Position numbers and translations under genes: made by a program. From positions 1 through 46,231 of the forward strand of contig MGOS01000053.1 in assembly GCA_001797185.1 (NCBI GenBank): 46,231 nucleotides of DNA, given 5' to 3'. Each line of letters opens with the position of its first letter. The stretch's first letter is position 1. Positions 5,815 through 21,835 of this stretch are shown here, piece after piece. Below the pieces are notes generated by a model. That model was not told the origin of the DNA, did no database searches, and was given only the letters and a program-made list of their open reading frames with translations. This DNA comes from Clostridiales bacterium GWB2_37_7. Its GTDB lineage: Bacteria > Bacillota > Clostridia > Lutisporales > Lutisporaceae.

Positions 5815-5840
5815 AAGGTGAAGCATAATTGCTTCACCTT
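5815..5840. terminator. Bidirectional terminator
   Basis: Perfect 11-base arms AAGGTGAAGCA (5815-5825) and TGCTTCACCTT (5830-5840) flank a TAAT loop. An A-run precedes the stem, which becomes a T-run on the minus strand. It serves both the RNase Z-like gene and the converging secreted-protein gene. Confidence 0.85.
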
Positions 5841-5859: not shown

Positions 5860-7600
5860 TTAGAAATTCTTTATCTCAAAAGTTCCTGTTACAGAGGAGC
5901 TAGCGTCCATCTTGAAAGTTTGAGCATATTCTTGTGAAGAGAAGTAAATATTTCCTTCAACCTTTGTGCCTATCAACTCGAAGCCAGGAGCGGAAACATA
6001 AAGGTCACCTATGAAGGTTCCTTTTGATATATTAGCATTCGGGCTCTTTATGAAGAACTTTGGAACTGACAAGATGAAGCTGTTTGTTACATTTCTCTTA
6101 TCATCTTGAGTGTAAAGAGCAATCTTACGCTTTTCGCCTTTTGTCTTGTCATCCTTACTATAGAATATACCATCTAAAGTAAGGTCTTTTGTGAAGTACA
6201 TATCTCTAAGAGTAGAAGGAATCCAAGAACCTTCTGCACTGATTGCCTTCTCAAAAGCTGCATTAGTATCTACTATTGAAGCAGTTGCCACAGTATCAAC
6301 TACTGCGTATATCTTATTTCCAGTAATGGAGCTAGCTGCATCCATTTTGAAAGTATCCATAGCTTCTCTAGTAGTGAAAATTACATTTCCATCTACCTTA
6401 GCAGCAATTAGATTGAAGTTAGGTGCTGAAACGTAAACATCACCCTTGAATGTTCCTTTTGAAATATTAGCATTTGGGCTCTTAACAGTTAACTTTGGTG
6501 CTGTTAATGTAAATGAACGAGTTGTAACTTTTTTAGCGTCTTGAGTATAAAGAGCAATCTTACGCTTAAGACCTTTTGCCTTGTCATTCTTGTCATAGAA
6601 AACACCATCTAAAACAAGCTCTTTATCAAAAGTTAAGTCTCTAAGAGTAGAAGGAATCCAAGAACCTTCTGCGCTTATTGCCTTCTCAAAAGCTGCATTG
6701 TCACGTACTATTGAAGCAGTTGCTACAGCATCAACATCTGCAAGTATTTGCTTGCCTGTGATGGAGCTAGCAGCATCCATTTTGAAAGTGTCCTTAGCTT
6801 CTTGAGTTGTAAAAATTACGTTTCCGTCTACTTTAGCAACAATTAGATTGAAGTTAGGTGCTGAAACGTAAACATCACCCTTGAATGTTCCTTTTGAAAT
6901 ATTAGCATTTGGGCTCTTAACAATTAACTTTGGTGCTGTTAATGTAAATGAACGAGTTGTAACTTTTTTAGCGTCTTGAGTATAAAGAGCAATCTTACGC
7001 TTTTCGCCTTTTGCCTTGTCATTCTTGTCATAGAAAACACCATCTAAAACAAGCTCTTTATCAAAAGTTAAGTCTCTAAGAACAGAAGGAATCCAAGAAC
7101 CTTCTACGCTTATTGCCTTCTCAAAAGCTGCATTGTCACGTACTATTGAAGCAGTTGCCACAGCATCAACATCTGCAAGTATTTGCTTGCCTGTGATGGA
7201 GCTAGCTGCATCCATAGTGAAAGTATCCTTAGCTGCTTGAGTTGTGAAAATTACATTTCCATTAACCTTTTGACCTACTAATTTGAAGTTTATAGCACTA
7301 ACATAAATATCACCATTGAATGTTCCTTTTTCAAGGCTAGCCATTGGGCTCTTAATAGTTATTGATGGTGCTGTTAAACTGAAGCTTGCAGTTACATTAC
7401 GCTTATCGTCTTGAGTGTAAAGACCTATCTTACGTTGAATAGCATCTATTCCTGTAACCTTGTCTTTCTTACCGTTCTTGAAAACGCCATCTAGAACAAG
7501 AGCTTTATCAGTAGTAAGGTCTTTAAGTGTAGTAACAATCCATTCGCCATCTGCACTAATTCCTTTTTCAAAAGCAGCTACATTGTCTACTAATGATGCA
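5860..7600 (-). repeat. Four tandem 435-bp coding repeats
   Basis: The same text recurs at exact 435-bp steps; for example AGAACCTTCT begins at 6226, 6661 and 7096. The units covering about 6300-6730 and 6735-7170 differ at only a few positions, while the outermost copies are more diverged. This points to recent duplication or gene conversion of the inner units. Confidence 0.8.
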
Positions 7601-7875
7601 GTAGTCACAACATCTACAACTGGCGCTGGAGCCGGTGTTGGTGCAGGCGTTGGTACTGGTGCAGGCACTGGAGCTGGCTTTGGCGCTGGAGCCGGTGTTG
7701 GTTTTGGTGTTGGTGTTGGCTTTGGAGCCGGTGCTGGTGCCGGTACTGGTGCTTCACCAGTAGCAGCAGCTACTACGTCTACCCCAGTTTGGTTCACTGT
7801 TACTGTATCAGCAGCATAAACAGCTGATGATAATAGCATTGTTGCAGCAACGGTCATAGCTAGAAGCTTTCTCAT
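5860..7875 (-). CDS. Secreted repeat protein with Pro-rich linker and four 145-residue repeats
   Basis: A 671-residue exported protein. Residues 1-21 are a signal peptide (MRKLLAMTVAATMLLSSAVYA). About residues 43-88 are a Pro/Ala/Lys linker (PAPAPAPKPTPTPKPTPAP). Four repeats of ~145 residues follow to the end. Each contains a block like AAFEKAISAEGSWIPSTLRD, KRKIALYTQD, ANISKGTFKGDVYVSAPNF, GNVIFTTQEAKDTFKMD and ASSITG. The alternating beta pattern suggests a solenoid or stacked beta-sandwich. I recognise no named domain, sortase signal or S-layer homology domain. The two central repeats are almost identical at DNA level. Duplicated promoter-like elements upstream suggest high expression, as for an abundant surface or matrix protein. 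GGGGG precedes the start. Confidence 0.85.
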   Translation of the reverse strand: MRKLLAMTVAATMLLSSAVYAADTVTVNQTGVDVVAAATGEAPVPAPAPAPKPTPTPKPTPAPAPKPAPVPAPVPTPAPTPAPAPVVDVVTTASLVDNVAAFEKGISADGEWIVTTLKDLTTDKALVLDGVFKNGKKDKVTGIDAIQRKIGLYTQDDKRNVTASFSLTAPSITIKSPMASLEKGTFNGDIYVSAINFKLVGQKVNGNVIFTTQAAKDTFTMDAASSITGKQILADVDAVATASIVRDNAAFEKAISVEGSWIPSVLRDLTFDKELVLDGVFYDKNDKAKGEKRKIALYTQDAKKVTTRSFTLTAPKLIVKSPNANISKGTFKGDVYVSAPNFNLIVAKVDGNVIFTTQEAKDTFKMDAASSITGKQILADVDAVATASIVRDNAAFEKAISAEGSWIPSTLRDLTFDKELVLDGVFYDKNDKAKGLKRKIALYTQDAKKVTTRSFTLTAPKLTVKSPNANISKGTFKGDVYVSAPNFNLIAAKVDGNVIFTTREAMDTFKMDAASSITGNKIYAVVDTVATASIVDTNAAFEKAISAEGSWIPSTLRDMYFTKDLTLDGIFYSKDDKTKGEKRKIALYTQDDKRNVTNSFILSVPKFFIKSPNANISKGTFIGDLYVSAPGFELIGTKVEGNIYFSSQEYAQTFKMDASSSVTGTFEIKNF

Positions 7876-7910
7876 TTTGTATCCCCCTTATAAATTTTTG
7901 GCTAAGCTTG

Positions 7911-7939
7911 TTATAAATTTGACTAATTAGTATACAAAC
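7911..7939 (-). promoter_or_regulatory. Promoter-like repeat copy A of the secreted-protein gene
   Basis: On the minus strand this unit reads TTGTAT, 16 bases, TATAAC, which resembles -35 and -10 elements pointing at the secreted-protein gene, 36 bases from its start codon. The 29-bp unit is repeated at 7972-8000. Confidence 0.5.
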
Positions 7940-7971
7940 TACCAAAAGTATGCCTAATTGGTTACACTTTG

Positions 7972-8000
7972 TGATAAAATTGACTAACTAAGATACAAAT
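7972..8000 (-). promoter_or_regulatory. Promoter-like repeat copy B, upstream of copy A
   Basis: This unit matches copy A at roughly 22-23 of 29 positions and reads TTGTAT, 16 bases, TATCAC on the minus strand. A third partial copy sharing the AAATGACTAA core lies at 8012-8029. The layout suggests duplicated promoters or a repeated regulator site. Confidence 0.45.
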
Positions 8001-18322: not shown

Positions 18323-21300
18323 ATGAAGCGCTTGACTATAAGAGGCAGACTTATAGCTGCCTTGCTAATTTTTACGACGATATTTACAAGCTTTGGGATA
18401 TTTACAATTGTAAAGATTAGGGAATTGGAAAGTGTGACAACTAGCATATATGATGATCCTTTGAAGGTCTCTTCAGCGGCAATAGAAGCTAGGGTAAATA
18501 TTATTAAAATGCAAGCACAGATAAAGGACATATTGCTTCTCACAGATCATAAGTTAATTCGAGAAAAAGATTTGCAGCGTATTATCTTGATGAACAGAAT
18601 ATATGAAAATCTTGATAATATTAGAGACCATTCTACATATGGAGAATCCCTGGATTTGGAAATTAAAACCAGAAAAAGCTTTATGAAATGGCACCAAAAC
18701 CATGAGTTGATGCTGAATGAAATGCTCTACGGAAATATGGATAAAGCCAAGGAAATAAGTATATACAATATGGAGCTGATAGATCATATAGAAGTAAACC
18801 TCAGCAAAATTGACAGCAATGCAAAACTTAGAGCAGCAGAATTGGTACAACAAGCTAATCGTGTTCAAAAAGATTTGGAGATTATGCTAATTGTACTAAA
18901 TATAGGATTGGTCGCATTTTTTACGATACTATTTACCTTTGTAATCAGGAGCATCGTTACGTCTATAAATAAACTGCAAAATATCATGAATGAAAGTGCA
19001 GTAACCGGTGTGTTGAGACCCGCGGAAATGGAAGGCGACAATGAAATTGCAGGGATTGCAAAACACTACAATGCATTAATACAAAAGCTACGAAATCAGT
19101 TTTGGTTAAAGGATGGCCAGAACTTGCTTAACCAGGAGATATCAGCGGCATCTGGCTTAAAGGATATGACGCAACGCTCCTTAAACTATATAGTTAAAAA
19201 CCTAGGAGCTGGTAAAGGGGCCTTATACCTATATAATGAGAATAACAAGCTTCTGGAGCTTCATTCATCTTATGCATATACAGAAAAGGAGCTGAGGTTT
19301 GGAAGCTATGTTTTGGGGGAGGGAATAATAGGTCAAGTTGGATTGGATGGAACCCCTATTTATATGGAGAATATTAGAGATTATGAAGGCTATATTACTA
19401 CAGGGGTAACCCTGGAAGCTGCTATCAGCATATATGCCTTTCCTTTGCTATTTGAGGATAAGCTGCATGGAGTAATTGAGCTGGCATCCTTCGAGGGTTT
19501 TGATGAATTGAAACGGGAGTTCTTGAGAGAAGCAGGAGTTATTATAGCAGCCAACATATATTCGGAGATTCAAAATCAGAAGGTTAAGAACCTATTAAAA
19601 ATATCGGAAAAAGCGCAGATGGAAGCAAGATATAGTGCGAGCCAACTCCTTAGAACAAATCAAATACTAGAGGAGCAGCAGCTTCGTTTGCAGCAGCAAA
19701 GTGAGGAATTACAGCAAACTAATTCTGAGCTGGAGGAGCAGCAGCAGCTTTTACAGCAACAAAGTGAAGAGCTGCAGCAGACAAATATGCAATTGGAAGA
19801 GCAGCAAATGTTGATGGAGGAACAAGCAAAACTGCTTAACATAAAAAATCAGCAGATGGAATCCTCCGGTCTTGAGCTTTTGAGGCACTCAAGACAGTTG
19901 GAGGCAGCAAATAAATATAAGTCTCAATTCCTTGCAAATATGTCTCATGAACTTCGTACGCCTTTGAACTCAATCATACTGCTTTCAAGACTTCTTATGA
20001 AAAATGAAAACAAACAATTGAGCAAGCATGAACTTGTAAAGCTAGAGGTTATATATGGATCGGGGCAGGAACTTTTGAGACTGATAAACGATGTATTAGA
20101 CTTATCAAAAATTGAAGCGGGCAAGATGGACGTCAACAATGAAGAGTTTCACACAAGAGATCTACTCAAGGAGCTTAAGCATATGTTTGATGGAGAGGCT
20201 CAAGAAAGAGAGATAAAGCTTCAATGCAAAGACTATGTAAATGATAAGGTTAATGGAGATTACAACAAAACCGCACAGATTGCTAGAAACTTAATTTCAA
20301 ATGCCATCAAGTTTACAAGTGAAGGCAATGTGAGCATTGATATAAGGCCACATGAAAGCAATGACATAAAAATTATAATAACTGATACAGGAATAGGAAT
20401 ATCAAAAGAGAATATTAACAAAATATTTGAAGAATTTCAACAAGGAGACGGCTCTATCTCAAGAAAATACGGTGGAACAGGCTTGGGACTGTCTATCTCA
20501 AAGAAATTAGCGGAAGTAATAAATGGAGAAATACTTGTTGAGAGTGAAGAGGGCAAGGGCAGCAGCTTCTCTCTGCTATTAAGAAATGTGAAGAAATCTT
20601 CAGATACTAAGACAGATGAATTAATGCTTGTAAGTAAATCAACGGATGAAGCTGCTGCTGCAAACGATGCGAAAAAGGTGATATTGATTATAGAGGAGGA
20701 TGTTGTTTTTGCGAACTATATCAAGGGGATTAATGATAGCATGGGCTTTTCAACTGTTATAGCAGCTACGGGTAGAGAGGGTCTTGATAGAGTAAGCAGC
20801 ACTAGAATAGACGCGATATTATTGGACTTGGTATTGTCGGATATCAGTGGAATAGAGGTTCTGCGAGAAATCAGAAGTACACAAGAGTTAAGAAATATAC
20901 CAGTACATATTGTATCGCCGAGGGATAGAAGCAATCTGCCTCAAAAAATGGGTGCTGTGGGTTGCAAGCAAAAGCCTTTAGGAAAAGAAGAAATTTCTGA
21001 AATTATATCAGGGATGGTAAATATAAAAACAAAATCGCCAAAAAGATTATTGATTGTTGAAGACAACGAGAAACAGCGGAATGCAATGAAAGAGCTATTG
21101 GAGGGTGTAGATACCATTGTAGAAACAGCAGATACGGAGGAGCTTGCCAAATCCCGAATTGAACAAAACGATTACCATGCGATCATACTTGATCTGGAAT
21201 TAGCATCAGGCAATGGTGCAAATATATGCAAATTCATGGCAATGAAGGAATATGAGATACCTGTAATTGTTTATACCGGTAAGGATTTAACAGTAGAACA

Positions 21301-21835
21301 AGAAAAGGAAATAAAAAAATATGCTGACAGCATAATAATAAAAACTGCCAATTCTGATGATCGTTTATTGGATGAGGTAACCTTGTTTCTACACAAGATA
21401 AAGAAAAATAATCCTACGCCACACTATCTTATTTCCAAAACGAATAAACAGCATGCCTTAACTTTAGAAAACAAAAAAATTCTTATTGCAGATGATGATG
21501 CAAGAAACATATTTGTCTTAGCATCTGCATTGGAGGACTTTGGAGCAGAAATATTGGAGACTGAAAACGGGAAGGAAGCCTTAGAAATATTGGAACATCA
21601 GCAAGTAGACATGGTTCTTATGGATATAATGATGCCGGTAATGGATGGGTATCAAGCCATAAAAGCAATCAGAAACAATGAAAAATACAATAACATTCCT
21701 ATTATAGCAATTACAGCTAAGTCATTGAAGGATGATAGAGACAAGTGCATAGCTGCTGGAGCAAATGACTATATATCTAAACCCGTGGACTACGATACAT
21801 TGGTGAGATTAATAAAAGCATGGATAAGCAAATAG
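18323..21835 (+). CDS. Membrane hybrid histidine kinase with HAMP, GAF and three receivers
   Basis: A 1170-residue sensor. A membrane helix (about 10-28) is followed by a four-helix-type extracytoplasmic domain and a second helix near 190-212. A HAMP region, a GAF domain (about 275-420) and a Gln-rich coiled coil (about 445-515) with 21-residue repeats such as LEEQQQLLQQQSEELQQTN come next. HisKA has His542 in SHELRTPLNS, and the ATPase has NLISNAIKF and GGTGLGLSI. Three receivers end the protein (about 785-900, 910-1030, 1050-1168); Asp1101 lies in the last, the most canonical. Its stop overlaps the frame of the CheR-type gene. Multistep phosphorelay is likely; the signal is unknown. Confidence 0.9.
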   Translation: MKRLTIRGRLIAALLIFTTIFTSFGIFTIVKIRELESVTTSIYDDPLKVSSAAIEARVNIIKMQAQIKDILLLTDHKLIREKDLQRIILMNRIYENLDNIRDHSTYGESLDLEIKTRKSFMKWHQNHELMLNEMLYGNMDKAKEISIYNMELIDHIEVNLSKIDSNAKLRAAELVQQANRVQKDLEIMLIVLNIGLVAFFTILFTFVIRSIVTSINKLQNIMNESAVTGVLRPAEMEGDNEIAGIAKHYNALIQKLRNQFWLKDGQNLLNQEISAASGLKDMTQRSLNYIVKNLGAGKGALYLYNENNKLLELHSSYAYTEKELRFGSYVLGEGIIGQVGLDGTPIYMENIRDYEGYITTGVTLEAAISIYAFPLLFEDKLHGVIELASFEGFDELKREFLREAGVIIAANIYSEIQNQKVKNLLKISEKAQMEARYSASQLLRTNQILEEQQLRLQQQSEELQQTNSELEEQQQLLQQQSEELQQTNMQLEEQQMLMEEQAKLLNIKNQQMESSGLELLRHSRQLEAANKYKSQFLANMSHELRTPLNSIILLSRLLMKNENKQLSKHELVKLEVIYGSGQELLRLINDVLDLSKIEAGKMDVNNEEFHTRDLLKELKHMFDGEAQEREIKLQCKDYVNDKVNGDYNKTAQIARNLISNAIKFTSEGNVSIDIRPHESNDIKIIITDTGIGISKENINKIFEEFQQGDGSISRKYGGTGLGLSISKKLAEVINGEILVESEEGKGSSFSLLLRNVKKSSDTKTDELMLVSKSTDEAAAANDAKKVILIIEEDVVFANYIKGINDSMGFSTVIAATGREGLDRVSSTRIDAILLDLVLSDISGIEVLREIRSTQELRNIPVHIVSPRDRSNLPQKMGAVGCKQKPLGKEEISEIISGMVNIKTKSPKRLLIVEDNEKQRNAMKELLEGVDTIVETADTEELAKSRIEQNDYHAIILDLELASGNGANICKFMAMKEYEIPVIVYTGKDLTVEQEKEIKKYADSIIIKTANSDDRLLDEVTLFLHKIKKNNPTPHYLISKTNKQHALTLENKKILIADDDARNIFVLASALEDFGAEILETENGKEALEILEHQQVDMVLMDIMMPVMDGYQAIKAIRNNEKYNNIPIIAITAKSLKDDRDKCIAAGANDYISKPVDYDTLVRLIKAWISK

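Follow-up and report, generated by a model that had tools for sequence, protein, structure and literature searches.

A secreted protein of four tandem, predicted beta-solenoid units from a Clostridiales bacterium as a possible surface part of flavin-based electron export

Gram-positive bacteria that export electrons by way of flavins are believed to depend on PplA-like FMN-bind lipoproteins, and the motif glycine is conserved in the known substrates of ApbE. The ApbE flavinylation motif reads D-x-x-[S/T]-G-A-[S/T] (PMC12052999; PMC8238504); changes of its Gly or Asp to Ala still allow flavinylation, with the Gly-to-Ala change keeping about half of it (PMC12052999). In lactic acid bacteria, iron reduction has been linked to NDH-2 and to PplA, a flavin lipoprotein, and some species that carry the locus genes, such as Lactococcus, lack PplA (PMC8837199). 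PF07456 corresponds to EetB, the FAD exporter family of the Listeria system, which colocalises with apbE (PMC9973259). Here, we describe a secreted tandem-repeat protein encoded in a 46,231-nucleotide stretch of DNA from Clostridiales bacterium GWB2_37_7 (the window), which we regard, with a probability of roughly 55%, as a wall-zone surface module of a flavin-dependent extracellular electron transfer system.

The gene occupies positions 5860..7875 on the minus strand, and its translation is a protein of 671 residues that is predicted to be secreted and contains four tandem units. Direct reading of the sequence places a Sec signal peptide at residues 1-21 (7813..7875, minus), which ends in SSAVYA followed by AD and has no lipobox cysteine of the PplA type; relatives share the same N-terminus. 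A stretch of 46 residues rich in Pro, Ala, Lys and Thr follows (residues 42-87; 7615..7752, minus), a putative stalk or wall-spanning linker, and leads into unit 1 (149 residues, 7156..7602), unit 2 (145 residues, 6721..7155), unit 3 (145 residues, 6286..6720) and unit 4 (141 residues, 5863..6285), all on the minus strand. A Pfam scan combined with sequence reading found no lipobox, LPXTG, SLH or peptidoglycan-binding anchor, and the C-terminus (VTGTFEIKNF) lacks an LPXTG motif with a hydrophobic tail, which sets the protein apart from S-layer and sortase-anchored proteins. The Pfam scan likewise returned no PG_binding_1 (PF01471) domain and no FMN_bind (PF04205) match at E<=1. The initial annotation had described a secreted protein with a Pro-rich stretch and no anchor motif, and all three features are borne out. 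Because no anchor was recognised, we can only infer that the protein is retained at the cell surface.

The flanking genes, for an RNase Z-type hydrolase and a 4Fe-4S protein, are unrelated and run in the opposite direction, and an intrinsic terminator-like hairpin of 11 pairs followed by a T-run lies just downstream of the gene (5815..5840, minus); an operon with these neighbours was rejected. Two 31-bp direct repeats upstream of the gene (7908-7938 and 7969-7999; 84% identical, 61 bp apart) are possibly operator sites. Elsewhere in the window, a 63-bp tandem repeat of 2.2 copies (19666-19806) lies within an ORF of 1170 residues (18323-21835).

Tandem Repeats Finder detected the array with a period of 435, 2.9 copies and a score of 1900, far above chance. 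The exact 435-bp spacing noted at first holds for units 2 and 3 and the start of unit 4, but unit 1, in which a loop is four residues longer, measures 447 bp and unit 4 measures 423 bp. The near-identity of the inner copies is also largely upheld, since units 2 and 3 share 92.6% of their DNA over 435 bp, compared with 64-74% for all other unit pairs; this identity is, however, neither uniform nor in register with the domains. A lag-435 identity scan located a 367-bp core (6840..7206, minus) that shares 97.5% identity with the block one 435-bp period away (6405-6771); it begins within the last part of unit 1 and spans most of unit 2. This core, which ignores domain borders, marks a recent duplication or conversion by which the two central copies arose or were homogenised. 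Nei-Gojobori counts gave a dS of 0.17 and a dN of 0.045 for units 2 and 3 (dN/dS ~0.27), and a dS of 0.64-0.87 for the pairs of units 1 and 2 and units 3 and 4; these counts indicate that the unit coding sequence is under purifying selection.

The unit is present in 15 of 22 genomes of the source organism's family, in 38 of 391 genomes of the class, in 8 of 399 genomes of a phylum sample, and in 23 of 121 genomes of another family, f108. The initial annotation expected copy number to vary between strains, and between species it does vary: with one genome compared per species, proteins carry between one and four units, plus one half copy. Outside the source family, the unit mostly occurs once, in a lipoprotein with a lipobox-like LxGC, sometimes twice, and in one ORF three times; proteins with several units are common in the source family itself and among some Clostridium relatives. 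The source genome itself also encodes a single-copy unit lipoprotein (at C15). The nearest named relatives come from Lutispora sp. BIN23 (L008) and a Clostridia MAG (L010). Three units together with a PG_binding_1 region occur in L007 and L009, as read from sequence, and in L008, where Pfam identifies the domain; L011 has two units. PG_binding_1, also matched by Pfam in L042 and L011, follows the Pro-rich stretch and precedes the units, a position in which the window protein, unlike these surface proteins, carries no such domain.

In a congener (L067), the syntenic locus contains a gene with three units and a PG-binding region and, next to it, a four-unit gene like that of the window. The latter (L067:10444-12418) is broken by a frameshift and a short deletion in unit 2, while the adjoining three-unit paralogue is intact; the broken gene may be a pseudogene or, as the genome is a draft, an assembly fault. 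Two further genera (G014 and G015) each keep three diverged units that are orthologous by position. In the unit tree, these pair accordingly, and window units 2, 3 and 4 group with G011a_u2 (88/87 support). Copy-number variability between species is thus not rampant, given the four units of L067 and the positional orthologues of G014 and G015. These same observations, together with the purifying selection on units 2 and 3, speak against a repeat protein that differs between strains and gains antigenic or adhesive diversity from changes in its copy number. The 435-bp repeats with their 97.5% core would permit recombination, and similar homogenised neighbouring units occur in two Clostridium species, but we consider this explanation improbable.

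Within the source family, two loci (L079 and L080) show a single-copy lipoprotein gene followed on the same strand by genes for a LytS-like kinase, a LytTR-like regulator and a CstA-like transporter, a neighbourhood not seen outside this family. A phage or plasmid origin was set aside after a search that covered plasmid records, among which the only match came from an apparently mis-assigned one. The record in question (L018, NZ_CP151545.1) is named as Pseudomonas aeruginosa plasmid pHN232-2 but reads like Gram-positive, Enterococcus-like DNA, carries a unit lipoprotein together with genes for a branched-chain aminotransferase, an oligopeptide-binding protein and transporters, and is probably mis-assigned or contaminated.

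The unit resembles no known family. Searches of Pfam, NCBIfam and PHROG returned only low-complexity matches to Pro-rich sequence or weak chance ones, phmmer matches to the PDB were essentially confined to the Pro-rich region, and the unit profile found nothing credible in the PDB, where its best match, chymotrypsin at E=0.03, was taken as chance. The structure prediction of one repeat that the initial annotation had proposed gave a confident result: the AlphaFold2 model of unit 2, built on an alignment of 76 sequences, reached a pLDDT of 96.1 and a pTM of 0.89 and consists almost entirely of short beta strands with two short helices. Foldseek with this model gave no PDB match at E<0.1 and none better than E=0.3 among viral models; its weak matches were mostly beta-solenoids, namely the SV2A luminal domain, pectate lyases, ice-binding proteins and bactofilin, and also included tapirin. 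On these searches, an explanation by a known domain was rejected, in agreement with the original view of an undescribed type. The unit is confidently modelled as an undescribed small beta-solenoid domain of ~140 residues, without a close solved neighbour. The bactofilin family (PF04519) is also built on a small beta-solenoid, and 4 of 28 units match it weakly in Pfam (best E 6e-5); the window protein and the first scanned window unit, however, have no PF04519 match, the Foldseek comparison with BacA gave E=0.58 and a TM of 0.35, and the unit protein is exported rather than cytoskeletal. The window protein, therefore, does not belong to the bactofilin class, which combines the PF04519 match with the fold.

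A model of two consecutive units reached a pTM of only 0.56, with a pLDDT below 50 at the junction (residues 141-146). As the linker is disordered and the overall score low, the units have no fixed arrangement relative to one another, and in the models they resemble separate beads strung on short, flexible linkers. A continuous beta-helical fibre is not supported by this low-confidence linker. Many adhesins and structural proteins have beta-solenoid folds, and the presence of tapirin, bactofilin and ice-binding proteins among the weak Foldseek matches would suit a surface domain of general adhesive or structural function that binds, for example, minerals, glycans or wall polymers and whose link to flavins reflects lineage bias. 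This alternative gains from the neighbourhoods of most unit loci, which lack flavin genes, and loses from the fusions, gene adjacencies and within-family co-occurrence described below; in the balance, we judge it possible but clearly less probable than the electron-transfer reading.

Several relatives fuse the unit to domains that point towards flavins. Proteins L008, L038 and L041-L044 combine a signal peptide, one or two domains of ~138 residues with D-[AV]-V-S-G-[AS]-T, the motif at which ApbE attaches flavin, and one to three units, several of them also with PG_binding_1; such fusions occur in the source organism's own family. The fused domains have a Pfam match below threshold (E=0.002), and their profile found no relative in the PDB. 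In size and in their occurrence as pairs, they agree with the FMN-bind2 subtype described previously (PMC11334425), and motif, size, pairing and the sub-threshold match together suggest that they are FMN-bind2-like. In the source genome, a separate protein with a PG-binding-like domain and the motif DIVAGAT shares 59% of the N-terminal 57 residues with the window protein. Since it has the same N-terminus and carries the PG-binding-like domain and DIVAGAT apart from the units, parts that are fused in relatives appear here as separate proteins. In two divergent relatives (L045 and L046), the unit is joined to a C-terminal region with AIASVS or AITSVS in the SGAT position, possibly an FMN-bind-like domain that has lost its flavin site.

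Gene neighbourhoods provide a second line of evidence. Unit lipoprotein genes directly adjoin an electron-transfer cluster in three different families. In G260 (L084), the order is ApbE, UbiA, NDH-2, NusG_II, EetB-type PF07456 and polyprenyl synthase, then the unit; in G202 (L103), a two-unit lipoprotein adjoins ApbE, NDH-2, NusG_II, PF07456 and polyprenyl synthase; and in G304 (L109), the unit lies with NDH-2, polyprenyl synthase and UbiA, that is, with NDH-2 and quinone genes only, so that ApbE, NusG_II and EetB are part of the cluster in two of the three. A rough model puts the chance of at least three such adjacencies among 60-80 loci at ~0.001-0.002. The likeness to the PplA/FLEET systems of Listeria, Enterococcus and lactobacilli, in which exported surface (lipo)proteins are encoded at a locus with NDH-2, quinone, EetB and ApbE genes, lies in the three unit relatives in or beside such a cluster. 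In contrast to PplA, the unit is a predicted beta-solenoid that lacks both an FMN_bind domain and a strict DxxSGAT, and the window protein is neither a lipoprotein nor encoded in that locus: its gene adjoins no NDH-2, EetB, ApbE or quinone gene. The source genome has a cluster of ApbE, NusG_II, PF07456 and polyprenyl synthase genes at C71, without the unit. The absence of an electron-transfer neighbour, a strict motif and an FMN_bind domain in the window gene counts against the flavin reading, as does the position of most unit loci away from ApbE.

All 66 unit genomes tested encode ApbE (38 from the class, 5 further ones from the phylum and 23 from f108), including the source genome (G000:C71, E=3.9e-95). 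Within the class, ApbE occurs in 38 of 38 genomes with the unit compared with 248 of 353 others (p=4e-6), in the phylum sample in 7 of 7 unit genomes, and in f108 in 23 of 23 compared with 64 of 98 others (p=2e-4). Owing to Rnf, ApbE and FMN_bind occur widely among Clostridia; the co-occurrence is, therefore, partly phylogenetic, and phylogeny inflates the p values for the class and for f108. A test at the level of genera within the class gave p=0.016. In one genus (g314), a strong ApbE match (E<1e-80, a split between strong and weak chosen after seeing the data) was found in 5 of 5 unit genomes and in none of 4 unit-less ones (p=0.008). The suggestion that the protein forms a matrix or released fibre finds no support in these results, which comprise a flexible unit junction, lipoprotein and PG_binding_1 relatives, flavin-linked neighbourhoods, fusions and co-occurrence; what the analysis adds to the initial annotation is the link of the unit family to flavin-based extracellular electron transfer.

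The units also share a conserved opening. Among the 84 of 85 units that could be anchored, nearly all begin with D/E-x-x-[T/S/A]-[T/S]-[A/P]-[S/T]. Its first position is Asp in 79 and Glu in 4, and the Ala/Pro and the final Ser/Thr are present in all 84; no other position around the linker is as well conserved as the Asp, the Ala/Pro and the final Ser/Thr, while residues upstream are near random. In the window protein, the heptads (all minus strand) are DVVTTAS in unit 1 (residues 88-94; 7594..7614), DAVATAS in unit 2 (residues 237-243; 7147..7167) and in unit 3 (residues 382-388; 6712..6732), and DTVATAS in unit 4 (residues 527-533; 6277..6297). A fifth heptad, DVVAAAT (residues 33-39; 7759..7779), resembles the ApbE motif but for one Gly and is conserved as DVVSAAT, close to the mature N-terminus, in paralogues whose other domains differ. 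The protein thus has five near-matches, all without the Gly, and no strict D-x-x-[S/T]-G-A-[S/T].

This layout raises the possibility that the units form a new class of ApbE substrate, with FMN covalently attached to the last Ser/Thr of the heptad and a flavin chain of four or five sites. It would be a sub-case of the electron-transfer reading, with which its probability overlaps. Except for the replacement of Gly by Thr/Ser, the heptad follows the ApbE motif, and the strict DAVSGAS occurs in L042, and EVVSGAS in L018; the tolerance of ApbE for Gly-to-Ala and Asp-to-Ala changes (PMC12052999) and the location of the invariant Asp within the linker that AlphaFold leaves disordered are in keeping with it. 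The co-occurrence in 66 of 66 genomes also favours it, as does the G260 cluster, whose ApbE has no other strict-motif protein within ~9 kb, in a genome with a single FMN_bind protein. Against it stand the lack of the Gly in 82 of 84 units, the change of Ala to Pro in 9 of 84, and the Ala, instead of Ser/Thr, at heptad position 4 of window units 2-4; moreover, the unit has no known FMN-binding fold, and a bare heptad would hold the flavin unshielded. Compared with the multi-flavinylated FMN-bind proteins (FMN-bind1 and FMN-bind2; SaFMN3 and CbFMN4), whose extracytosolic tandem domains are likewise modelled as beads on a string (PMC11334425) and which the FMN-bind2-like pairs fused to units in relatives resemble, the unit differs in fold and in its motif, and its flavinylation is putative. 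On the whole, we regard flavinylated units as somewhat unlikely, and the same doubt attaches to the extended proposal that ApbE accepts the Gly-less heptad and the tandem protein acts as a flavin wire that crosses the Gram-positive wall and whose copy number is tuned by recombination.

The electron-transfer reading draws together the three cluster adjacencies, the SGAT fusions, the co-occurrence with ApbE and the conserved heptad. According to it, the Sec signal would export the window protein, the Pro-rich stretch would be a spacer that traverses the cell wall or runs along it, and the four beta-solenoid units, joined by their short linkers, would be displayed there. The unit would belong with the ApbE-flavinylation apparatus of NDH-2, demethylmenaquinone genes, the EetB FAD exporter, ApbE and FMN-bind proteins, either as a scaffold or acceptor-contact module paired with flavinylated partners or as itself a flavin carrier at the opening heptad. 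Repeating the unit in tandem would provide more sites or a longer reach, and the central copies would have arisen or been homogenised recently by recombination at the 435-bp repeat.

The window protein may thus be an unrecognised cell-surface part of the flavin-based electron-export machinery. Because the unit lies beside the cluster in three families, is fused to SGAT domains elsewhere and, among the genomes tested, was found only in those with ApbE, its family is a concrete candidate for the missing surface component where the locus genes occur without PplA. The heptads offer a sharp test of how far recognition by ApbE can depart from DxxSGAT, and if the units only scaffold, they would still represent an unannotated surface family across Bacillota.
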